Positions 13,578 through 61,404 of a stretch of 64,000 nucleotides of DNA are shown one piece after another. The position numbers and the translations under genes were made by a program. Source of the DNA: a virus; the IMG/VR virus record IMGVR_UViG_3300025141_016680, positions 34,045 through 98,044 of that record; one strand, given 5' to 3'. Position 1 is the first letter of the stretch. The number at the start of each line of letters is the position of its first letter. A model generated the notes under the pieces. That model had not been told where the DNA came from, made no database searches, and was given only the letters and a program-made list of their open reading frames with translations.

Positions 13578-14891
13578 CTACCCAGCATGGTAGGTGCATG
13601 CTATCAGCTTTGTAGTCTCTGACTCCTGTGACCAATCAACTGCTTCTAGTGCCTTTGCAACTGTGTAGTTGTGAAGGAGATCGTCAGATTGCTTCATACC
13701 ATGACCGGCAACATTTGATGAGCAAATATAGTCACCTGTTGATATATTTCCGCCCTCAGAGCAGACAAGTATGTTTCCATCACCAACTGCGTAGACTTGA
13801 TGTGATATTGATCCATCCATGTCCTCTAACTCTCCTGAGTAGACTCCGATCACAGCTCTATCATTTGCAGATGTTGTCATGCTCATATTATAGTGTATGT
13901 GTCTGTTAGTTTTTTCGATGCTATCAACCTTCAACAAAATTCCGTAATTACGAGCGTCTTCGTCCTCTACAGTTCCAAAGTGACCACCTGTAAATTGATT
14001 ATATGAAACTGTGGAGCCGGTGAAAGTGATATTTCCTATCTCTGTCCCATCGCCATCACGGAAACTCATTGCAGTGTTTGTTCCTGAGCTTCCTGTTGTC
14101 CCACAGTCTATGCGAATGCCCCTTCTGTTTGTATTATCTCCATGGTGCTTGACATAGAATCCATAGTTGTTTGTAAAGTCTGTCTGGACCTGAACTCTTC
14201 CAATACTTCCAAACGTGGTGACACCTGCTGCGCTGTCTAGAAATCCCATCTTGCCACCGCTCACACCTGCTTGCACATAGAAGGCATGGGTATTACTGGT
14301 GGCTTCGACACGAAAATTGTTGGAACCGTTGGCTTCTTCATTTATGACAACGCCGGTGGAGTCAACATTGAGGGCTTGCGCATTTGTACTTTCGATAATT
14401 GTTTCAAAGGCAGTATTACCCTTGTTGATGTAGATTGTGTTTGCGCTAGAGTCTATAAAAAATGCCTCATCCTCTCCATCTGTCTCAATTCTAAAGTCTA
14501 CATTGGCGTTGCTATCCTGATTAAAAATTGCACCGCCTGGGCCTATTGTCATTACAACATCATCATCGTTGTGGAATGACGCTGTGAAGTCATTCTCGCC
14601 TTTATTAATATAAAAGCTGTTTTGACTGGCATCGAGGAATAGTGCCTCATCCTCTTTATCAGACTCTACCCTGAAATCTACAATGTTGCTTCCTCCTTCG
14701 TTGACGACTACAGTTGCGGTGCCGTCGCCAGCATCGAGTGTTATGCATTCAAGAAGAGTGCCGTCATTAATTTGAGAGAGCTTCATATCGGCGTCTTCTA
14801 AGACGATACCTCCGGAAGGCTTAATCGCACCCGTCACATTCAATGAAGAGACGTTTCCAGAAACATAAAGATTGTTTGTAACTAAAGCCAT
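13578..14891 (-). CDS. Tail-fibre/adhesin-like structural protein
   Basis: 437 residues, no known enzyme motif. N-terminus LYVSGNVSSLNVTGAIKPSG resembles the repeat of the giant fibre protein directly upstream. The middle has three spaced blocks of the type VDFRVE(S/T)(D)xEDEA(L/F)F(L/I)D with VYINKG between, a beta-rich fibre pattern. The last ~110 residues (VIGVYSGELEDMDGS, GDYICSSNVAGHG, TVAKALEAVDW) resemble C-terminal fibre domains of the peptidase-G2/IMC autocleaving type, a weak resemblance by eye. It begins 3 bp after the giant gene's stop, so they are co-expressed. Confidence 0.75.
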   Translation of the reverse strand: MALVTNNLYVSGNVSSLNVTGAIKPSGGIVLEDADMKLSQINDGTLLECITLDAGDGTATVVVNEGGSNIVDFRVESDKEDEALFLDASQNSFYINKGENDFTASFHNDDDVVMTIGPGGAIFNQDSNANVDFRIETDGEDEAFFIDSSANTIYINKGNTAFETIIESTNAQALNVDSTGVVINEEANGSNNFRVEATSNTHAFYVQAGVSGGKMGFLDSAAGVTTFGSIGRVQVQTDFTNNYGFYVKHHGDNTNRRGIRIDCGTTGSSGTNTAMSFRDGDGTEIGNITFTGSTVSYNQFTGGHFGTVEDEDARNYGILLKVDSIEKTNRHIHYNMSMTTSANDRAVIGVYSGELEDMDGSISHQVYAVGDGNILVCSEGGNISTGDYICSSNVAGHGMKQSDDLLHNYTVAKALEAVDWSQESETTKLIACTYHAG

Positions 14892-22826: not shown

Positions 22827-24116
22827 TTAAATTATTCTTGATGCCAATGTTGCCAACTTTGACCTCTCTCCCTTGGTTAGGCCAATGTGACCCGCTAGCG
22901 GTGCATCCTTAAATTTCTCTATAACAATTGTCAATCCATTAGAGAGACTATCAATATAAGGTGTATCAACCTGATCTGTGTCACCCAATAAAACAAGCTT
23001 AGAATTCTGCCCCACTCTCGTTATTATTGTCTTTAGCTCATGAATTGTTGCATTTTGAGCCTCATCAACAATGATAAAAGAATCATTAAATGTTCTGCCT
23101 CTGATGTGTGATAGCGGTGCTATTTCTATTTTACCCTTATCCTTCATTAGCTCAAAGTATGTTACATCAGAAAAAATTTCTCTAAAGTTATCAGCAATTG
23201 GAAACAGCCATGGGGCCATTTTTTCGTTTATATCCCCTGGGAGATAACCAATGTCTCGGCCGACAGGCTGAATTGATCTTGTGATGACAACTCTTTTGTA
23301 TCTTTCCTCATGTAATCCTGATATCGCTGCAGCAAGCGTTAAATAAGTCTTTCCAGAACCTGCAATTCCTGTCAATGTAACTAATGGTAGAGATTCTCTT
23401 GTTAGAAGATCTAGGGCAAATTTTTGCTCCTTGTTTCTAGGCCTAACAGAAACAGACTCACTCACCTCTCCACGAATTTGACAAATTTTATTTCCATGCA
23501 CTGCACCTAACGCTGATTTATTTGCTGATTTTAAAATTGTAAATTCATTTGGTCTAAAATCTTCATCAAATATTGAGACGGGTAAGTGACCCTTTTCATA
23601 AAATTCATCTATTAGATCATCTGTGTCAAGCAAGATTTCAGTTTGACCTGTATAGAAGTCTCCCTCCTCAACATAGATTGCATCCTTATAATAGTCTTCT
23701 GAAGATATTCCTAATGCATCACACTTAACTCTAAAGTTTATGTCCTTTGTGACAACAATTACAGATTGTCTTGTGATCTCAGTTAGTTTAGCTGCTACAG
23801 CTATAATTCTATTATCAGCTGCCGATGAATCGAGTCCTGCGGGTACATTTGTGCAATGGTTTATCTCAACTCGAATAGTCTGATCATTGGATACTGTAAC
23901 TCCTTCATGGAGGCTTCCTGCGCTTCTTAGTTCATCAAGAAATCGATTTACATATCGTGCATTTTCTCCAAGAAGGCCTGGTTTATCCTTAAATCTATCG
24001 AGCTCATCTAAGACAACTAGAGGGATAACTACGTCGCTTTCTGGAAATGAGTGTATTGAACATTTGTCATAAAGCAGCACAGAGGTATCAATTAAAAATA
24101 TTTTTCTTTGGTTCAT
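22827..24116 (-). CDS. phoH: PIN-PhoH fusion ATPase
   Basis: 429 residues, two domains. 1-155: PIN nuclease-like domain (FLIDTSVLLYDK, VVLDELDRF, SSAADNRIIAVA, VIVVTKDINFR), with the acidic residues expected at D10, E38, D101 and D124. 225-429: PhoH ATPase with Walker A TGIAGSGKT (about 249-257), Walker B SFIIVDEAQNAT and a GDTDQVD sensor. This PIN-PhoH (PhoH2/YlaK) arrangement is linked to RNA unwinding and cleavage in bacteria; phoH genes are frequent in marine phages. It is transcribed divergently from the sigma region 4 gene. Confidence 0.92.
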   Translation of the reverse strand: MNQRKIFLIDTSVLLYDKCSIHSFPESDVVIPLVVLDELDRFKDKPGLLGENARYVNRFLDELRSAGSLHEGVTVSNDQTIRVEINHCTNVPAGLDSSAADNRIIAVAAKLTEITRQSVIVVTKDINFRVKCDALGISSEDYYKDAIYVEEGDFYTGQTEILLDTDDLIDEFYEKGHLPVSIFDEDFRPNEFTILKSANKSALGAVHGNKICQIRGEVSESVSVRPRNKEQKFALDLLTRESLPLVTLTGIAGSGKTYLTLAAAISGLHEERYKRVVITRSIQPVGRDIGYLPGDINEKMAPWLFPIADNFREIFSDVTYFELMKDKGKIEIAPLSHIRGRTFNDSFIIVDEAQNATIHELKTIITRVGQNSKLVLLGDTDQVDTPYIDSLSNGLTIVIEKFKDAPLAGHIGLTKGERSKLATLASRII

Positions 24117-24117
24117 T

Positions 24118-24146
24118 TTGTCAACCTAAACTATTTTGGGTATGAT
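24118..24146 (+). promoter_or_regulatory. Sigma70-like promoter for the sigma-4.2 gene
   Basis: TTGTCA, 17 bp, then GGG-TATGAT on the plus strand, 31 bp before the ATG at 24177. The -35 is closer to the housekeeping TTGACA than the GTGYAR type seen in the right part of the window. Confidence 0.5.
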
Positions 24147-24176: not shown

Positions 24177-24410
24177 ATGAAATGCTTTGAGGCACATGAA
24201 AAGTTTTCTTCATGCTGTGACAAGCAGTCATGTCGCTACTGGATAAACTTTAACACTTCACAAAATTGCACACTCCTTGCATCTAGAAGGGGTCCCATGA
24301 CCCTTCAGGAAATAGGGGATATATTTGGAGTTACCAGAATGCGGATATGCCAGCTGGAGAAGAGAATAATCCAAAAAATGGAAAATCTCATGGGTGAAAA
24401 AATTGATTGA
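24177..24410 (+). CDS. Stand-alone sigma factor region 4.2-like protein
   Basis: 77 residues. The C-terminal half (MTLQEIGDIFGVTRMRICQLEKRIIQKMENL) is a clear sigma70 region 4.2 helix-turn-helix (compare T-L-E-E-I-G...V-T-R-E-R-I-R-Q-I-E). The N-terminal half has five cysteines (C3, C13, C14, C19 and C30) in a spacing that could bind zinc and is not sigma-like. Regions 2 and 3 are absent. One of the few plus-strand genes in this part. It may recognise a -35 element or the RNA polymerase flap with a separate sigma-2 protein; see 50900-51379, which lacks exactly this region. Confidence 0.8.
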   Translation: MKCFEAHEKFSSCCDKQSCRYWINFNTSQNCTLLASRRGPMTLQEIGDIFGVTRMRICQLEKRIIQKMENLMGEKID

Positions 24411-24855: not shown

Positions 24856-26049
24856 TCACATACCGCCCAATAATGATATTGCTATGAGCCCTGGAACACT
24901 CTCATTTACGTAAATTCCAGAAAATAGAGTCTCGGTTCTTCCACCCACATAGGAAAGTGCTGACTCTAACTTTTTACTAACATCAGGATCTCCTGCCATT
25001 ACAGAGGTTGCCACAAGTAGCATGGCACCTGTTTTGATAGATCCGGCAGGTTCAGGACATGGGGATGACTTGATGCATCCTTGAAACAAAGCTGACCCAA
25101 GATCTCTTCTGCTTGGATCTCTTGAAATGGTCGATCCCACTATCATTCTTCCTGGTGTTCCCAGGCATCTCTCAAGATCCTTAGAGTCAAATGTCTGAAT
25201 TGGTGAAGACTCTGAGGAAAGCTTTAGAACTTGCGCAATTAGCTTTGCAAAGTTTTTATTAGCTGATGGATACATGTTTAGCATTCCTACCTTGCCTCTC
25301 AGTAGCTGTAACTGTCTCTCATTATCGATGACAATGTGTGGGTGACTTTGCAAACCCTTTAATGCTGATTCATAATTTGTAGAAATTGTAGGATTGAGCA
25401 ATTCTTGAGCTGAGGGCTTTGTTAGAATATAAACAACTTTTCCGCTTGCACCACATGACTTTAAGTGTCGAGTCATGGAATTATGAAGAACAGAGCACGC
25501 ACTTCCCGTTCCTCCGCCTCCACCAGCGAGAACAAATATCCAGTCAATAGAGCCTATTCTTGTTCTAAGGGCATCCTCTAGTAGAGCACTATTTTCTCCC
25601 AGAACCTGTTGCCCAAGATTTACATCTTTTCCAACTCCGTCGGCGCCAGGAATAAGAAGAAAGTGATCAGGTGGAACTCCATCTGGTTGATCCTTAATAG
25701 TGGTATTAACCAAGATTGTTTTGCTGAATCCGAGATCTAGAAAGGCCTTTGCTAGCTTTCCACCGCCGCCTCCAACACCAATAAAGGCACACTTAATGGC
25801 ACTTGCAGCAGAATTTTCTGGGAGCATTCTCTCATCATCTTCTGCGGGATCATCATCATAAGCTTCAACAAAGTCAAACCCTAGATCATCACCAGGGTTG
25901 ATGGTGTCATAAAAGCTATCTTCTTTATTTTCTTCTTTTTCAGACATGTTTTTTTCCTCTTCTGTACTTATAGGTTTCAAATCTTTTGGTGCCTCTAATC
26001 TCTTTGAAGTATGTTTATCTCCACGTAAATTTTTTATAGAGGAAGCCAT
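24856..26049 (-). CDS. Tubulin/FtsZ-like GTPase
   Basis: 397 residues from the ATG at 26049, chosen because GGAGAG lies 5 bp upstream (a longer frame begins at 26076). About 85 acidic, disordered residues precede the GTPase domain: CAFIGVGGGGGKLAKAF (first nucleotide loop), then VLAGGGGGTGSACSV, the tubulin signature G-G-G-T-G-S. The C-terminal part (SIKTGAMLLVATSV, LFSGIYVNE) fits FtsZ/tubulin domain 2 in order but is strongly diverged. Phage tubulins (PhuZ, TubZ) build filaments that position DNA; the long acidic N-tail is unlike PhuZ. Directly downstream of the tmRNA. Confidence 0.82.
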   Translation of the reverse strand: MASSIKNLRGDKHTSKRLEAPKDLKPISTEEEKNMSEKEENKEDSFYDTINPGDDLGFDFVEAYDDDPAEDDERMLPENSAASAIKCAFIGVGGGGGKLAKAFLDLGFSKTILVNTTIKDQPDGVPPDHFLLIPGADGVGKDVNLGQQVLGENSALLEDALRTRIGSIDWIFVLAGGGGGTGSACSVLHNSMTRHLKSCGASGKVVYILTKPSAQELLNPTISTNYESALKGLQSHPHIVIDNERQLQLLRGKVGMLNMYPSANKNFAKLIAQVLKLSSESSPIQTFDSKDLERCLGTPGRMIVGSTISRDPSRRDLGSALFQGCIKSSPCPEPAGSIKTGAMLLVATSVMAGDPDVSKKLESALSYVGGRTETLFSGIYVNESVPGLIAISLLGGM

Positions 26050-26137
26050 ATGGTCTCTCCATCCTATCGACTTCAATAAATATGAAGCAGCTAAAGTAGT
26101 GACCTATTTCATTGCTAATGATGATAGATCAGTAAAA

Positions 26138-27709: not shown

Positions 27710-29077
27710 TTATTTATCTTCAACAAGAGCGTGTCCTATAGAAGTAATAGATCTTAATGAAGACATACTGTTTCGAATAGCCAAGTATGCACTAGCTAGC
27801 GGAATGTATTTCTCTGTTGATTGAAATATGTCTTTAATCACCTTGTCAATTGGTGAGCTTGGTTCTTCTATGTCTATTCTTCCTGCCTCCAGACAGCCAT
27901 GTCTAATAAATGACTGGTACATCCTAAGTGATGTATCTATCTGCTCAATGCATGTTCTTTCTTTGCTTATAAGATTACTTCCCACACTAATCATAACTCT
28001 TTCACCAGAGAGAGACATTATCCTCTTTTCAAACAGACTTCTCGCCTCTCCTGTTCTCTTCTCATCTTTTTCACTTTTTAAATAATCTAGCTGTCTTCTT
28101 ACAGAATTTCTTGAATCAGGATTGAATACTGAAGTCTGATTTTCTGATATATGGATGCTAGAGATCACCGGTAATTCTTCCTTGATGGCTGTGGATATTA
28201 ATTCTCCCTTGTAAGAAGAAACAATATCTGTGCCGCATGTTGCAGCAATATCATTTAAAATATTAACAGTCTCCTCTGTGAGACCAACAGCGATAGGAAT
28301 TACATCTAGGGTTCGTCTTTGTGTGTTTACAAAGATTGTTTGTAACACATCGGGCTTAAACTCTCTTGCAAATATTGCATAAGGCTCTTTATTTTCAGAC
28401 GCTCGCTCTAGCAAGTGATGAATTTCAGAGACAGATTCTATCATTCCATCGATGAGTATAACTCTTACATCCCTTCTCTTCCAGACCTTCTTACCCATTA
28501 AAAAGTGATAGTCTACACCCACATTAAACTGGTAACCGCTTACCTTCTCAATTACTGTGTGTGACCTCTGCGACTTCTCTACATGCATTGATGTATTGGG
28601 CCCTGCAAGCTCTATTGATTTATCTAAGATTTGCTTTGTGCCCGGATCGAGATTTTGACTGCTTGTAATAGTTTTCCAAATATTTCCATCTAGTGTCTGA
28701 CCGTGATTATAGATTTCTTTAAGCCAGCGTTTCTCTGTTTCTTCTAACTCACTAATCATCTGACGATGACTGCACCCACCTGCTAAAAGTTTCATACAGG
28801 GATGAAGTGATTTTACTAAGATCTGAAAGCAAAGATTTCCGCTAGCACCAGAAATCAGCTCAGCGCTTGTGCAGGCATCAAGAATAATTGGCTGTATTAA
28901 CCTATTGTGAAATCCCTTATCCTTAAAATAGATGTAAGATTGCAAAGGCTCTGTGCTAACAAAATTACCTCGAAAGATATTTTTGCTTCTATTAGTTAGC
29001 TCTAGCTTTTGAATTAGATCTACTTGTGCTAAAAGATCCCTTCTAAAAGCAGCCTGGTTTAATCCCTTTACGAACAT
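27710..29077 (-). CDS. Highly divergent GroEL (group I chaperonin)-like protein
   Basis: 455 residues. By eye it follows GroEL in order: GYQFNVGVDYHF (GroEL GMQFDRGYLSPYF) at about 181-192; ILIDGMIESVSEIHHLLERA and IFAREFKPDVLQTIFVNTQRR (apical domain: [30 protein letters not shown]) at 207-255; FEKRIMSLSGERVMISVGS (QERVAKLAGGVAVIKVGA) near 348-366. The ATP motif DGTTT is replaced by SGASG at about 76-80, and the position of GroEL D398 is a threonine. The ends are about 90 residues shorter than GroEL. It may be a non-ATPase chaperonin-like capsid or assembly factor, or a partner of host GroEL. Adjacent to prkA. Confidence 0.7.
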   Translation of the reverse strand: MFVKGLNQAAFRRDLLAQVDLIQKLELTNRSKNIFRGNFVSTEPLQSYIYFKDKGFHNRLIQPIILDACTSAELISGASGNLCFQILVKSLHPCMKLLAGGCSHRQMISELEETEKRWLKEIYNHGQTLDGNIWKTITSSQNLDPGTKQILDKSIELAGPNTSMHVEKSQRSHTVIEKVSGYQFNVGVDYHFLMGKKVWKRRDVRVILIDGMIESVSEIHHLLERASENKEPYAIFAREFKPDVLQTIFVNTQRRTLDVIPIAVGLTEETVNILNDIAATCGTDIVSSYKGELISTAIKEELPVISSIHISENQTSVFNPDSRNSVRRQLDYLKSEKDEKRTGEARSLFEKRIMSLSGERVMISVGSNLISKERTCIEQIDTSLRMYQSFIRHGCLEAGRIDIEEPSSPIDKVIKDIFQSTEKYIPLASAYLAIRNSMSSLRSITSIGHALVEDK

Positions 29078-42641: not shown

Positions 42642-42871
42642 TTGAGACTCATGATTCCGCTAATGATCATGAGAAGCGCAGCACTAACAATTATAGAGAG
42701 GCATAGGATTCCTGTGAGGAGCGAGCCCTTGTTTAAGCCTTTCCACTCTGCCCACTCACTTATGCTCTTTCGGATCGGGATGTGAGGCAGCTCCTCTGGC
42801 TCACTCTCAATTCTAATTTCCGGAGGAGTTCGTATCAGCTTAAGATAGTCTGGTCTTTCACTATCACTCAT
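42629..42871 (-). CDS. Single-pass membrane protein
   Basis: 80 residues; proline- and glutamate-rich cytoplasmic part (PPEIRIESEPEELPHIP) and one C-terminal helix LLTGILCLSIIVSAALLMIISGIM. No family recognised. Overlaps the hydroxylase-like gene by an ATGA, so the two are coupled and may work together at the membrane. Confidence 0.6.
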   Translation of the reverse strand: MSDSERPDYLKLIRTPPEIRIESEPEELPHIPIRKSISEWAEWKGLNKGSLLTGILCLSIIVSAALLMIISGIMSLNYTM

Positions 42872-43347
42872 TTTCTCTCCGTGGGTGTGTAGACAATTCG
42901 AGTCCCCATGACCCTATCGATGACATCAGACCTAACACCCCAGTTGGCATGTTGATTCTTTCCCATGTGATGGTCATAGTGCCATGGAACATGGATCTTC
43001 GCCCACTCCGGATTCAGGTGAGCTCTCTTGTGAACCTTGTGGTAGTGAAAAGAAGAAACCATATTTGTCAGAACGAACCAGGGAGCGATAGCGATAAGGG
43101 GAAGATGAGCGATGTTAAGAAGGAAAAGTGCCACAAGTTCCTTTCCACCTGCATCCCATCTAAATTTTTCGTAGATAGAATCATAAAATTCATTTTTACG
43201 TGAGTTTCGGTGGTGCTCCTGAAAGTGAAAAGAGAGAACGTGATTATTGGAGGTGCCAAATTTGTGTAAGATGTGTTTGTGGAGCACCCACTCCATAATG
43301 TGGCCGTATGCCCACGCTACGAGGATCTGACAGCCGATCCAGAACAC
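42868..43347 (-). CDS. Fatty-acid-hydroxylase/sterol-desaturase-like membrane enzyme
   Basis: 159 residues. Histidine clusters in the order of the di-iron hydroxylase superfamily: HKHILH (23-28), HFQEHH (41-46), FHYHKVHKRAH (about 99-109) and HYDHH (about 123-127), with hydrophobic segments between (ELVALFLLNIAHLPLIAIAPWFVL). The enzymes hydroxylate or desaturate lipid chains or carotenoids with O2. Shorter than most cellular members (about 200-250). A lipid-modifying enzyme is unusual for a phage. Confidence 0.8.
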   Translation of the reverse strand: MFWIGCQILVAWAYGHIMEWVLHKHILHKFGTSNNHVLSFHFQEHHRNSRKNEFYDSIYEKFRWDAGGKELVALFLLNIAHLPLIAIAPWFVLTNMVSSFHYHKVHKRAHLNPEWAKIHVPWHYDHHMGKNQHANWGVRSDVIDRVMGTRIVYTPTERK

Positions 43348-47683: not shown

Positions 47684-47712
47684 ATTATATCCTAACTGTC
47701 ATCGATCTGCAC
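47684..47712 (-). promoter_or_regulatory. GTGCAG-17-TATAAT promoter
   Basis: Minus strand GTGCAG, 17-bp spacer ending AGGA, TATAAT; 46 bp upstream of the ATG at 47638. Overlaps the 3' end of the upstream gene. Confidence 0.7.
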
Positions 47713-48332: not shown

Positions 48333-48361
48333 ATTATACCAGGCATCGACCACGATTGCAC
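48333..48361 (-). promoter_or_regulatory. GTGCAA-17-TATAAT promoter
   Basis: Minus strand GTGCAA, spacer of 17 ending CTGG, TATAAT; serves the GTG-start gene at 48276. Confidence 0.75.
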
Positions 48362-48948: not shown

Positions 48949-48977
48949 ATCATACCACAGCCATCGACCATCTGCAC
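48949..48977 (-). promoter_or_regulatory. GTGCAG-17-TATGAT promoter
   Basis: Minus strand GTGCAG, spacer of 17 ending CTGTGG, TATGAT; 25 bp upstream of the ATG at 48924. Confidence 0.8.
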
Positions 48978-49529: not shown

Positions 49530-49558
49530 ATCATACCACGGTCACTCCGGATCTGCAC
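49530..49558 (-). promoter_or_regulatory. GTGCAG-17-TATGAT promoter
   Basis: Minus strand GTGCAG, 17 bp ending CCGTGG, TATGAT; 21 bp upstream of the start at 49509. Confidence 0.78.
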
Positions 49559-50446: not shown

Positions 50447-50475
50447 ATTATACCACAAGGCGCCAGCGCCTGCAC
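50447..50475 (-). promoter_or_regulatory. GTGCAG-17-TATAAT promoter
   Basis: Minus strand GTGCAG, 17 bp ending TTGTGG, TATAAT; 26 bp before the ATG at 50421. Confidence 0.8.
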
Positions 50476-50899: not shown

Positions 50900-51379
50900 C
50901 TACAAGATTGTCATTAACAGCTCATGTCGTCGTGGGTGTCTGATCCCATCTCCTTTTGGCCTGGTGGCAACCGATTCTGGCAGGGTCTCCACTGTAACAC
51001 CAAAGCGCCTGCTGAGGACTCGTTCTTCCCTCGGGGTGAGGCAACAGATGACCTCACGCTTTACGAGGGGAAGAGTTGATTCCTCCTCCACTGTGCCTGC
51101 GATCAGGTCCACCCGTCGAGTGCTGGAGTCTCCCACAGTCTCGTCGAGGGCAACATTCCTCTCCGCTCGATGAGCTGCCCGCGAGATCCGCTGGCGAATC
51201 CACCAGGTCGCATAGGTTGAGAACTTAGTGCCCCGGCTGGTATCAAACCTCTCTGCTGCCTTCAGCAGACCAAGATTCCCCTCCTGAACGAGATCGTCAT
51301 AGGCGATTCCGGACCATGTGTATCTGCGCGCTTGCCAGTGTACGAGTCCTTGATTTTCCGCAACAAGCTGGGTGCTCAA
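50900..51379 (-). CDS. Sigma70-family factor truncated after region 4.1
   Basis: 159 residues. Region 2 is excellent: GLVHWQARRYTWSGIAYDDLVQEGNLGLLKAAERFDTSRGTKFSTYATWWIRQRISRA, including the -10 melting/recognition helix YATWWIRQRI. A short region 3-like linker leads to LTPREERVLSRRFGV (region 4.1), after which the sequence (TVETLPESVATRPKGDGIRH) no longer matches; the region 4.2 helix-turn-helix is absent. The protein should bind core polymerase and open extended -10 promoters without classic -35 contacts. An extended -10 TGGTATACT lies at about 51423-51431 upstream. See the separate 4.2-like protein at 24177. Confidence 0.88.
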   Translation of the reverse strand: MSTQLVAENQGLVHWQARRYTWSGIAYDDLVQEGNLGLLKAAERFDTSRGTKFSTYATWWIRQRISRAAHRAERNVALDETVGDSSTRRVDLIAGTVEEESTLPLVKREVICCLTPREERVLSRRFGVTVETLPESVATRPKGDGIRHPRRHELLMTIL

Positions 51380-51475
51380 TTTGAATCCTTTGAGTGGGTG
51401 AACATTCCTTGTTAACCCTTTCAGTATACCATTTTTAGAATGGGGGCCGTAACGACAGAGTTGTAAAAAAGGTGT

Positions 51476-51839: not shown

Positions 51840-51868
51840 ATCATACCATACAGCTGATCCTGTTACAC
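51840..51868 (-). promoter_or_regulatory. GTGTAA-17-TATGAT promoter
   Basis: Minus strand GTGTAA, 17 bp ending TATGG, TATGAT; 20 bp before the ATG at 51820. Confidence 0.8.
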
Positions 51869-52706: not shown

Positions 52707-52735
52707 ATCATACCATGTTTTCTAGCTATCTGCAC
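52707..52735 (-). promoter_or_regulatory. GTGCAG-17-TATGAT promoter
   Basis: Minus strand GTGCAG, 17 bp ending ACATGG, TATGAT; 21 bp before the ATG at 52686. Confidence 0.8.
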
Positions 52736-53591: not shown

Positions 53592-53996
53592 CTATTCGAC
53601 TTTCTCAAGAAGCTTACGCTTAACGTAGGTCTCCTCACCAGTCTTGGTACACAGAAGCTTGGTCATCCCGGGTGCTGGATTCACCCAGCCAAGACTAACC
53701 CGGGCTCTCGCTCTGAGCACAATATAGGTTCTCTCTCTATAGAGGGGAATCGTTACTGAACGTGGTGCCAGCTTAGGTTCGCCAGCACTGTCATGCCATT
53801 CAGTTCGCCCAGTAGCTACATCCTCACGATGCTTTCGATACCATTCGTCCTGCTCTTCCTGTGTCGTCGGTCGGTAGGACTCGACGATCCCATCACGGGC
53901 TAGTTTGTAAGATGAAATAGGAAAGCGTAGCCCACCACCGAACTCCTCTGTGAAGCACACCTCAATATTGAGCCTGACTAGATCACCCTTCCTCAT
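53592..53996 (-). CDS. 'MxxGDLV' SH3/KOW-like protein, long form
   Basis: 134 residues, starting MRKGDLVRLNIEVCFTEEFGGG. The largest member of the family, with an inserted charged helix (TTQEEQDEWYRKHREDVATG) and a second beta part RTYIVLRARARVSLGWV. Ends 71 bp after the small membrane peptide's coupled pair. Confidence 0.5.
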   Translation of the reverse strand: MRKGDLVRLNIEVCFTEEFGGGLRFPISSYKLARDGIVESYRPTTQEEQDEWYRKHREDVATGRTEWHDSAGEPKLAPRSVTIPLYRERTYIVLRARARVSLGWVNPAPGMTKLLCTKTGEETYVKRKLLEKVE

Positions 53997-53997
53997 T

Positions 53998-54096
53998 TTA
54001 GGCTCCTGTGATGTAGAGTATTATCTCTGAGAGAACCCACACAATGGGAACGGTCAGAAAAAGAACAGTCACGCCGTAAAAAGTATCATCGCTCAT
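53998..54096 (-). CDS. 32-residue membrane peptide
   Basis: MSDDTFYGVTVLFLTVPIVWVL then SEIILYITGA: one membrane helix. ATGA overlap with the gene upstream indicates translational coupling; 1 bp before the next gene. Confidence 0.6.
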   Translation of the reverse strand: MSDDTFYGVTVLFLTVPIVWVLSEIILYITGA

Positions 54097-54547: not shown

Positions 54548-54576
54548 ATTATACCAAGGTAATCATGATTCTACAC
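54548..54576 (-). promoter_or_regulatory. GTGTAG-17-TATAAT promoter
   Basis: Minus strand GTGTAG, 17 bp ending CTTGG, TATAAT; 22 bp before 54526. Confidence 0.8.
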
Positions 54577-55385: not shown

Positions 55386-55409
55386 AACAACTCCTTTATT
55401 GTACTACTA

Positions 55410-55438
55410 TCATACCACAGCTGTGGATAGATTGCACG
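55410..55438 (-). promoter_or_regulatory. GTGCAA-17-TATGAT promoter
   Basis: Minus strand GTGCAA, 17 bp ending CTGTGG, TATGAT; 25 bp before 55385. Confidence 0.82.
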
Positions 55439-56329: not shown

Positions 56330-56358
56330 ATTATACACCATATTTTTCAAAGTTACAC
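56330..56358 (-). promoter_or_regulatory. GTGTAA-17-TATAAT promoter
   Basis: Minus strand GTGTAA, 17 bp ending ATGGTG, TATAAT; 23 bp before 56307. Confidence 0.78.
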
Positions 56359-57141: not shown

Positions 57142-57170
57142 ATTTTACCACAGGTCTGGCGAATCTACAT
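57142..57170 (-). promoter_or_regulatory. ATGTAG-17-TAAAAT promoter
   Basis: Minus strand ATGTAG, 17 bp ending CTGTGG, TAAAAT; 26 bp before 57116. Confidence 0.72.
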
Positions 57171-57573
57171 GAATCGAGTACCCACCCAAATCATCAATAG
57201 AGTAGCTGGCAAGAAATACGAACTCTCGAGCATCATAATCCTTTTCCCAGCACTCGATGTCAGCTGTCTCCAAGCACACAAGGTAGGCGAAGGGAGCACA
57301 CCCGTTGAAGTCTAGCACACCACATTTATCCAATAGCTCAGGTTCATAATCACGAAATTCGTAGTCTGCCTTCGCAAGAGTACAGCTGAATGAATGGAAC
57401 CCGCCTCCTGTTGCTGCCTGCGAGATGAGGAGCGCTAGACCAGTAGTCGTGCGCTGCGAGATGTACGAGACCAGACTCGGAACCATGTTGTCAGGATACC
57501 CATCCATGTGGACGTAGCATCCCTGGACTGTTCCGTCTGGGTGCATGATACCGATATTACAATGAGTGCTCAC
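57145..57573 (-). CDS. Conserved phage-type protein ('STHCNIGI' family)
   Basis: 142 residues. MSTHCNIGIMHPDGTVQGCYVHMDGYPDNMV is the start of a family common in phage genomes (typically S-T-R/H-x-N-I-G-I ... I-Y-x-H-W-D-G-Y-P), of unknown function. A normal-length, intact copy; one of the better clues that this block is phage. Confidence 0.75.
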   Translation of the reverse strand: MSTHCNIGIMHPDGTVQGCYVHMDGYPDNMVPSLVSYISQRTTTGLALLISQAATGGGFHSFSCTLAKADYEFRDYEPELLDKCGVLDFNGCAPFAYLVCLETADIECWEKDYDAREFVFLASYSIDDLGGYSIHVDSPDLW

Positions 57574-57584
57574 CTTATATCCTG

Positions 57585-57848
57585 TCAGCTATTAGGAGTA
57601 GTGTTATAGAGTCGTTCACGAATTGCTACAACTGTACTAGCCAGTCGCTCACGATCTACGGTGTCGAGGTAGGAGTTGAATCTTCCCTCCTCGTCCTGAA
57701 TGAAAACTCGAATGTAGTCATCATCAAGACCAGAAGTGTAGACATTGAAAGCCTGATTCAACTCGCTGCCATTGATGCCTAGAGAATACCACTTGTTGAT
57801 GTCCTGTGCCCATTTGTCAAGCGCTTCCTTGTAGCTAAGATCGAACAT
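57585..57848 (-). CDS. Hypothetical protein
   Basis: 87 residues: LSYKEALDKWAQDINKWYSLGINGSELNQAFNVYTSGLDDDYIRVFIQDEEGRFNSYLDTVDRERL. Helical N-half; no family recognised. Confidence 0.5.
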   Translation of the reverse strand: MFDLSYKEALDKWAQDINKWYSLGINGSELNQAFNVYTSGLDDDYIRVFIQDEEGRFNSYLDTVDRERLASTVVAIRERLYNTTPNS

Positions 57849-60287: not shown

Positions 60288-60402
60288 GCCGCTTTGCCCA
60301 ACGGTAACCGGCCCACGCGATCATGGGTGACAGCACCACCATCACAGCAAGGCTCCAGGCAAACTCCTTCAGGGGAACATGCTCGTGCCTCCTTTTGGTC
60401 AA
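60259..60402 (-). CDS. Small membrane protein, TTG start
   Basis: 47 residues if TTG at 60402 is the start (GGAG 5 bp upstream, TTGA overlap with the nuclease stop): MTKRRHEHVPLKEFAWSLAV, then VVLSPMIAWAGYRW and a lysine-rich tail AKRRAKKGKG. One membrane helix with positive ends. No ATG is available at a suitable place. Confidence 0.45.
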   Translation of the reverse strand: MTKRRHEHVPLKEFAWSLAVMVVLSPMIAWAGYRWAKRRAKKGKGRL

Positions 60403-61163
60403 TCTGTCTCCAGTGGAGCGAGGGTGATGGTGAACGAGGGCGTGGAGTTCCTCCAGTAGTCCGTCCTCTCCTGAAGCTTTGTAACAGCCTGATCCATTGT
60501 CAGGCGCTCCTTATCCAAGGCAGCATTCAGTTTTTTAACCTTGCTCGGCTTTGCACCCTCAAGCCGATTTCGCAGTCCTCTCTGACGCTCAAGCCAGCTC
60601 TCATCGAGCTCCCGCCGCTTGAGGGCAATCTTCTCCAGCTCCCGCTCGTTTCGGCTCGACACTGATCCCCAGAGCACATTGCACCTGTCCATCGCCCGAT
60701 CCTTCCGCATTCTCGCCTTCTGTCGGGCACCCGGTGACGGGGGATGAAAGTCGTCCGGAGTGAGCTCCTCGAAGTGCAGGACAGCAAAATTCTCAAAACC
60801 TGGGTCAGCGAGCACGAACAGAAAGTCGAGCGCTCCCTTGCGCGTGAGGGTAACGTAATCCGTCTGAAGGGAGTAGTTTTTGTACCTGCCCGAGCCCGAG
60901 CTGATCTTGCACTCCAGCTCGCGATCAAGATCCGGGAGCACGATGTCCGCCTCTCCGGTACGCCCATCCACCTTCACCGACCAACTTTGGGCCAGCTCAC
61001 GCCCGAAGAAGTTCTCCTGCGCCTGGGACATGATGATGTTCCTCCGGCCGATATTATCAGCCAGCGGGAGCCCGTAACGGTCGAAGAGACAGCGCATTTC
61101 TCCCTCGAAGGTTCGCATCCTGGTGAGGGCAGATAGAACCATTTCGCGTGTCAGGTAGCTCAT
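60399..61163 (-). CDS. PD-(D/E)XK-like nuclease
   Basis: 254 residues from MSYLTREMVLSALTRMRTFEG (ATG at 61163). QAQENFFGRELAQSWSVKVDGRTGEADIVLPDLDRELECKISSGSGR has the fold's core: G-E-A-D-I-V (acidic) followed by E-L-E-C-K (E-x-K), then LTRKGALDFLFVLAD. Residues 150-254 form a long charged coiled coil (RNERELEKIALKRRELDESWLERQRGLRNRLEG). Could be a host-genome-degrading or restriction-like enzyme; no methylase partner is adjacent. One of the few long genes in the small-gene block. Confidence 0.62.
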   Translation of the reverse strand: MSYLTREMVLSALTRMRTFEGEMRCLFDRYGLPLADNIGRRNIIMSQAQENFFGRELAQSWSVKVDGRTGEADIVLPDLDRELECKISSGSGRYKNYSLQTDYVTLTRKGALDFLFVLADPGFENFAVLHFEELTPDDFHPPSPGARQKARMRKDRAMDRCNVLWGSVSSRNERELEKIALKRRELDESWLERQRGLRNRLEGAKPSKVKKLNAALDKERLTMDQAVTKLQERTDYWRNSTPSFTITLAPLETD

Positions 61164-61164
61164 T

Positions 61165-61404
61165 TTACTCGCACGCAGCGTCCTCTTCGATGTCACCGCC
61201 CATGAACTGGACGCTTGTCATTCCCTCAGATGTGACCCTTCCACCGGGCCAGAGCACCTGATATCGCAACTTTCCTGACCCGTCGAACATGTTCCACTCA
61301 GGCCTGATCACCACTCCAAGCTGTCCGGCACCGCCCTCAAAGACACTCCGACTGGCGTGATTCTTCGCTCTCTTTGTCAACTTAACCAGATCACCAGGCC
61401 TCAT
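61165..61404 (-). CDS. 'MxPGDLV' SH3/KOW-like protein
   Basis: 79 residues from MRPGDLVKLTKRAKNHASRS (ATG at 61404, AGGAGGAG 6 bp upstream). GGAGQLGVVIRPEWNMFDGSGKLRYQVLWPGGRVTSEG matches the beta plan of the other members. ATGA-coupled to the upstream ORF. Confidence 0.6.
   Translation of the reverse strand: MRPGDLVKLTKRAKNHASRSVFEGGAGQLGVVIRPEWNMFDGSGKLRYQVLWPGGRVTSEGMTSVQFMGGDIEEDAACE

Follow-up and report, generated by a model that had tools for sequence, protein, structure and literature searches.

The phage record examined here encodes a sigma70-type factor that ends after region 4.1 and, at a separate locus, a 77-aa protein that carries region 4.2 behind a cysteine-rich head. We propose, with a probability of about 0.58, that the two together form a sigma factor of two polypeptides, with the cut inside region 4 and a changed -35 element read by the small subunit. 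Sigma factors are seen as one polypeptide in which the -10 and -35 readers are tethered to each other. In the proposed mechanism, the truncated sigma factor would bind the host core polymerase, and its region 2 would read the -10 element. The 77-aa protein, with its four-cysteine head, would take the place of sigma domain 4 on the beta flap and read the -35 element. Its altered recognition helix (E585 to Met, R588 to Cys) would be paired with an altered -35 box, GTGNAA, at the normal 17-bp spacing. We infer that the two proteins act on one polymerase and that the 77-aa protein is the reader of GTGNAA. It may additionally serve the gp55-like late sigma factor of the phage. The two proteins are truncated in complementary ways, are conserved and occur together in large records, and the GTGNAA element recurs around truncated sigma genes.

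Materials and methods

The whole stretch of DNA analysed (64,000 nucleotides, the window) corresponds to positions 34045-98044 of a linear viral record of 98,044 bases, which is probably an incomplete genome fragment. Positions refer to the window unless the record is named. Six truncated sigma factors of companion phages (alignment A1) were used as queries for the family search, and the best 80 relatives gave 80 loci. The promoter pattern GTGYAR, taken from the window, served as a prediction for relatives, over 1.23 Mb of sequence from 64 non-redundant truncated-sigma loci. In a separate test, TGnTATAAT sites were collected without assuming any -35 element.

Results

Features of the window and their neighborhood

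The features are listed in Table 1. The GC content of the window increases along its length from ~37% to ~52%, and a milder shift in the same direction was seen in two companion records (G048 and G051). The climb, at 36000-64000, coincides with the early region and its small genes. A chimeric assembly of the record is disfavoured by the neighborhood. It is unlikely because, in other phages, relatives of ORFs from the high-GC part lie no more than 10 kb from truncated sigma genes. Such relatives lie near 44 of 80 truncated sigma genes for the ORF at 60402-61217, near two for the ORF at 53595-54020 (53% identity) and for the ORF at 57148-57588, and near one for the ORF at 42871-43347.

The divergent neighbor of the 77-aa gene is one that we take to be PhoH-like from our own reading of its sequence. 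The product of the gene adjoining the 77-aa gene at 24856-26076 (minus strand) matches Tubulin/FtsZ weakly (PF00091, E=1.9e-6, below the cut-off), and its relatives are found close to truncated sigma genes as well as to 77-aa genes. It may be a phage tubulin, and the phage also bears a gp55-like sigma factor. At 27710-29077 (minus strand), a GroEL-like chaperonin is encoded (PHROG 5725, E=8e-25).

Table 1. Positions and strands of genes and promoter elements in the window.
Feature	Position	Strand	Basis or remark
PhoH-like gene, divergent neighbor of the 77-aa gene	22827..24116	-	relatives near 79/80 members of the 77-aa family
Host-like promoter TTGTCA-N17-TATGAT, upstream of the 77-aa gene	24118..24146	+	
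Sigma region 4.2 protein, 77 aa, four invariant Cys in head, recognition helix TRMRICQ	24177..24410	+	PF04545, conservation, AlphaFold2, PDB profile match
Early promoter GTGCAG-N17-TATAAT	47684..47712	-	
Early promoter GTGCAA-N17-TATAAT with TGG	48333..48361	-	
Early promoter GTGCAG-N17-TATGAT with TGG	48949..48977	-	
Early promoter GTGCAG-N17-TATGAT with TGG	49530..49558	-	
Early promoter GTGCAG-N17-TATAAT with TGG	50447..50475	-	
Truncated sigma70-type factor, 159 aa	50900..51379	-	PF04542 E=3e-21; reading frames; alignment A1
Extended -10 (TGGTATACT) upstream of the 159-aa gene, without GTGYAR box	51423..51431	-	
Early promoter GTGTAA-N17-TATGAT with TGG	51840..51868	-	
Early promoter GTGCAG-N17-TATGAT with TGG	52707..52735	-	
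Early promoter GTGTAG-N17-TATAAT with TGG	54548..54576	-	
Early promoter GTGCAA-N17-TATGAT with TGG	55409..55437	-	
Early promoter GTGTAA-N17-TATAAT	56330..56358	-	
265-aa protein, function unknown, early-region marker	about 60399..61196	-	relatives within 10 kb of 44/80 truncated sigma genes in other phages

The 159-aa protein ends after region 4.1

The ORF of the 159-aa protein starts with TTG and has AAAGGA upstream. Region 2 is followed directly by a 3.2-like linker, by 4.1 (LTPREERVLSRRFGV) and by an unrelated tail of ~32 residues. Pfam Sigma70_r2 covers residues 5-74 (E=3e-21), and the protein matches PHROG 351 (E=2e-34). Region 2, with its core-binding and -10-reading residues, is of the primary sigma70 type, and the WWIRQ motif is retained. 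A complete region 4 in one chain is absent: only a 15-residue stub is left (profile positions 4-18 of 50, E=0.03). Alignment A1 also shows the loss of region 3 and of anything ahead of region 2. The three forward frames downstream of the gene hold no 4.2 sequence; therefore, no single frameshift restores 4.2, and a frameshift or readthrough was rejected as an explanation. The tail itself (ETLPESVATRP...IRHPRRHELL) was considered as a decayed 4.2. The likeness is too weak, and the tails of relatives are unrelated.

Region 3.0 of a sigma factor is the usual reader of the TGn element. The 159-aa protein lacks region 3.0, yet the promoters of the window have strong TGn elements, which this protein should be unable to read. 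The 159-aa gene could thus be a shortened or decaying copy, with a fuller truncated sigma factor, possibly encoded in the stretch of the genome that the record lacks, working with the 77-aa protein. We consider this somewhat unlikely. It would suit a record that is probably a fragment and a protein that has lost region 3 and the N-terminal part kept by relatives and that forms a lone long branch in the sigma tree, a placement that is not trusted. It is opposed by an open reading frame with a strong region 2 and an intact 4.1, by a promoter and a ribosome site of the gene's own, and by a neighborhood that is that of truncated sigma genes elsewhere.

The 77-aa protein carries region 4.2

The 77-aa protein matches Sigma70_r4 (PF04545) at profile positions 19-48 only (E=8e-10) and is the only PF04545 match at E<=0.001 in the whole 98,044-base record. 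A scan of viral contigs returned 119 stretches encoding the family. Fourteen positions are invariant in 73 distinct sequences (C3, C14, C19, C31, L43, G47, T53, R54, M55, R56, C58, Q59, E61, and K62), and the helix TRMR[IV]CQ is present in all 73. The ORF is far from a chance one, because these relatives share the four cysteines and the helix with no exception. Relative to sigma70, R584 and Q589 are kept, and E585 and R588 are replaced by Met and Cys, respectively. AlphaFold2 predicted the structure with a pLDDT of 94. Against the PDB, the family profile matched region 4 of sigmaA (E=2e-8, residues 38-74 only); the top Foldseek matches were also sigmaA region 4, with a probability of up to 0.99 but an E of 0.2. 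On this sequence and model evidence, the 77-aa protein is a genuine sigma-4.2 homologue. Its cysteines may bind zinc.

The original prediction, which had described a 159-residue protein with region 2 and 4.1 and no 4.2, and a 77-residue protein with only 4.2 behind a Cys-rich head, is borne out for both proteins by Pfam, by the lack of a restoring frameshift and by the four invariant cysteines. It named the regions correctly, although it left the minus strand of the 159-aa gene unstated and overlooked the loss of region 3.

No member of the 77-aa family was found in cyanophage T4-likes (the carriers of true gp33) or in a second group of truncated-sigma phages described below, and the annotated phage collection holds neither this family nor the Cys-rich family of that group. 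In bacterial genomes, the family occurs only on three contigs of metagenome bins, namely L391 (PBIO01000025.1), L392, and L393, with bins of Halobacteriovorax, Legionellales, and Flavobacteriales. These contigs are probably binned phage, hinting at hosts.

Truncated sigma factors form a large family

Phage sigma factors that terminate right after 4.1 are among the relatives of the 159-aa protein. All 80 best relatives end 6-56 residues past 4.1 (RLRFG motif), and none of them continues into 4.2. A 4.2 helix motif was found within 3 kb downstream in 0 of 79 cases, and a separate 4.2 exon just downstream is absent. A strong region-2 sigma factor is present in 6 of 50 records with the 77-aa family, and all six end after 4.1. 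In contrast, full-length sigma70s of other large phages (Cronobacter GAP32, Vibrio 2.275.O, Microcystis MaAM05, and Synechococcus S-H34), which share region 2 and region 3, all run past 4.1 into sequence at the 4.2 position (4/4). In MaAM05 and S-H34 this sequence is a canonical one, whereas that of GAP32 has diverged.

In a tree read for its topology, the truncated sigma factors form two separate clades, with full-length sigma factors between them. Because full-length sigma factors separate the two clades, 4.2 was probably lost at least twice. The idea that the split sigma factor arose in the studied phage was not supported: truncated sigma factors form a large family, and the split goes back to the ancestor of a clade and is not specific to this genome.

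The two pieces occur together in the largest records

The small protein is the only above-cutoff region-4 match in the 16 large records that carry its family, and none of the 16 holds a complete region 4. Six of them have a primary-type sigma factor, and at its end the match to the region-4 profile extends over no more than positions 1-20. The complementarity claimed earlier, with one protein having what the other lacks, recurs in those relatives that are complete enough for a check. Both pieces are present in 7/7 records of at least 236 kb (G038, G039, G048, G053, G058, G102, and G104), as well as in G051 (176 kb).

Starting from the sigma side, the 77-aa gene was found in 2 of 50 truncated-sigma records, those of 267 and 281 kb. 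Many of the others are fragments missing the late region, and several also lack a gp55-like match. G075 (201.6 kb) and G108 (160 kb, with a gp55-like match), in which the 77-aa gene was not found, are exceptions that count against the pairing. The two genes are distant from each other in every genome seen. In the seven largest records, they are ~58-124 kb apart as computed from coordinates, if the genomes are circular. Fragments often miss one piece because the genes lie so far apart. The 77-aa family follows the PhoH/late region and not the sigma gene. As a candidate two-subunit sigma factor, the truncated sigma factor and the 77-aa protein show sequence complementarity and co-occurrence.

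The gp55-like protein and the T4 analogy

A gp55-like protein is encoded at positions 13788-14549 of the record, outside the window (PHROG 234 late sigma, E=4e-4). Its C-terminus is DFDIF, and its matches among annotated phages are remote (~30%). The phage therefore has two region-2 proteins, the 159-aa and the gp55-like protein, neither with 4.2; the latter has no region 4. Since a distinct gp55-like late sigma factor is already present, the 159-aa protein is not the gp55 of this phage, and its match is to PHROG 351 and not to PHROG 234, the late sigma family matched by the gp55-like protein. A gp33 homologue was ruled out for the 77-aa protein by hhalign of its family against a gp33 family (probability 0.2%), and gp33 is reported to be structurally unrelated to sigma region 4 (PMC7892883). 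The analogy with T4 gp55 and gp33 drawn in the original prediction is reasonable as a mode of action and fails as homology for both proteins. The T4-type late promoter TATAAATA gave no signal in the studied record, with two copies only.

The 77-aa protein might instead be the flap partner of the gp55-like late sigma factor, a gp33 replacement derived from sigma 4.2, with the truncated sigma factor working alone. In position, the 77-aa gene does belong to the late/PhoH half, with gp55-like genes 13-46 kb away. Many 77-aa records encode gp55-like proteins, and the studied record has no gp33-like ORF of the cyanophage type. Nevertheless, we regard this reading as distinctly improbable. A flap partner of this kind does not explain a DNA-reading helix that is invariant in 73 sequences, and late-region loci have no conserved -35 element. 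By inspection, the 77-aa family has variable C-termini and no visible sliding-clamp-binding motif (T4 gp33 ends in TLDFLL). The conserved 4.1 of the truncated sigma factor would also be left partnerless.

A changed -35 element at the usual distance

In the window, GTGYAR-N17-TATNNT was observed 12 times against 0.42 expected, so the GTGYAR promoters noted earlier are real. Eleven of the 12 sites lie between 47 and 59 kb on the minus strand, and a TGG extended -10 accompanies most sites. In the 64 truncated-sigma loci, GTGYAR-TATNNT occurred 73 times at spacer 17, 27 times at 18, and 8-17 times at other spacers. TTGACA had no spacer peak in these loci, nor had GTGYAR in the late-region, second-group, full-sigma, and Syn9 control loci. 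The test that assumed no -35 element agreed. At 161 TGnTATAAT sites of truncated-sigma regions, the -35 position held NTGNAA in 50 and GTGNAA in 38, and a TTGACA-like box in one. The corresponding counts for control sites were 1/79 (late-region), 0/25 (second-group), and 0/28 (full-sigma). Full-sigma loci have a TTGA-like -35 instead. Single genomes have their own boxes, namely GTGCAA (G104), GTGAAA (G091), and GTGTAA (G051); weaker or variant boxes were seen in G038, G039, G053, and G048. GTGNAA keeps the distance of a normal -35 element. This points to a reader that is sigma-4-like and takes the customary position, though with a changed preference.

Alternatively, these sites could be immediate-early promoters for the host sigma70 holoenzyme, aided by TGn and upstream A-rich sequence, with the truncated sigma factor and the 77-aa protein acting elsewhere. 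Host sigma70 reads the early promoters of T4 (PMC2988021), and extended -10 elements are common here. About a quarter of the truncated sigma genes (17/65) lie behind their own GTGNAA promoters (at least 11 of 12 matches). Positive feedback or host reading must therefore start the cascade, and the host polymerase may have to read these promoters first. The original prediction raised the possibility that the two halves are made at different times; on this point, the 77-aa gene has a host-like site (TTGTCA-N17-TATGAT), unlike the truncated sigma genes with GTGNAA promoters. As an account of the sites as a whole, host reading seems unlikely to us. TTGACA is not enriched, GTGNAA is fixed at 17 bp, and the full-sigma controls differ in their -35 element. 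Moreover, the truncated-sigma loci span 33-51% GC; therefore, the host sigma factor alone is an awkward common reader.

A second phage group

Another group with truncated sigma factors (G005, G015, G016, and fragments) has a different Cys-rich protein that ends in a 4.2-like helix-turn-helix. Loci of this family are L194, L195, L196, and L360-L378. A contig with the second Cys family was present in 7 of the 16 samples with second-group truncated sigma factors. Profile comparison of the two Cys-plus-4.2 families matched C-x11-C and the helix-turn-helix (E=1.3e-4, probability 54%). Sigma70_r4 was weakly matched by 10 of 17 members of the second family, and its AlphaFold2 model was poor (pLDDT 63). 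At TGnTATAAT sites of the second group (L002-L050), a small sample, approximately TTTAAS located 13 bp upstream replaces the -35 element. This signal is possibly one homologous promoter.

Discussion

The arrangement resembles the gp55-gp33 pair of T4 in that a region-2 piece and a piece for the flap, or region-4, position are encoded by separate phage genes for the host core polymerase, with joint action being our proposal here. As in T4 late transcription, a gp55-like protein is also present. Unlike gp55, the truncated sigma factor is a primary-type sigma70 that keeps 4.1; unlike gp33, the 77-aa protein is homologous to sigma 4.2 and has a DNA-reading helix; and unlike T4 late promoters, those described here have a -35 element. 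SigO-RsoA is a cellular system whose split falls between regions 2 and 4. Its likeness to the present case is that one sigma function is made from two polypeptides, as proposed here. The present split differs in lying inside region 4 and in a phage. The Bacillus subtilis pair is listed as a two-subunit sigma factor (PMC10141391).

A survey of T4-type (group 2) jumbo phages, in the part drawn on here, reports HTH-only minimal sigma factors and fuller RpoD-like ones, presenting these as alternative types and, possibly, as ancestral forms (PMC7824862). Unlike our account, that part does not describe complementary truncation or an altered -35 box. No description of truncated sigma factors paired with a 4.2 protein was found in the open-access literature.

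More tentatively, and as a possibility that we hold to be below even odds, the split within region 4 may be ancestral to a large uncultured clade of gp55-bearing phages and be paralleled in the second group. The separate, Cys4-headed -35 half would then be fixed on GTGNAA and possibly be an interchangeable module for the truncated sigma factor (early/middle) and the gp55-like protein (late).

The cut lies inside the -35 domain and is matched by a non-host -35 box; therefore, -35 recognition in trans is directly testable. If the two-polypeptide sigma factor is real, it would be an orthogonal two-part promoter system and would explain simply how one -35 reader can be combined, within a phage, with different region-2 subunits. 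It would also provide the transcription programme of an abundant group of uncultured phages.
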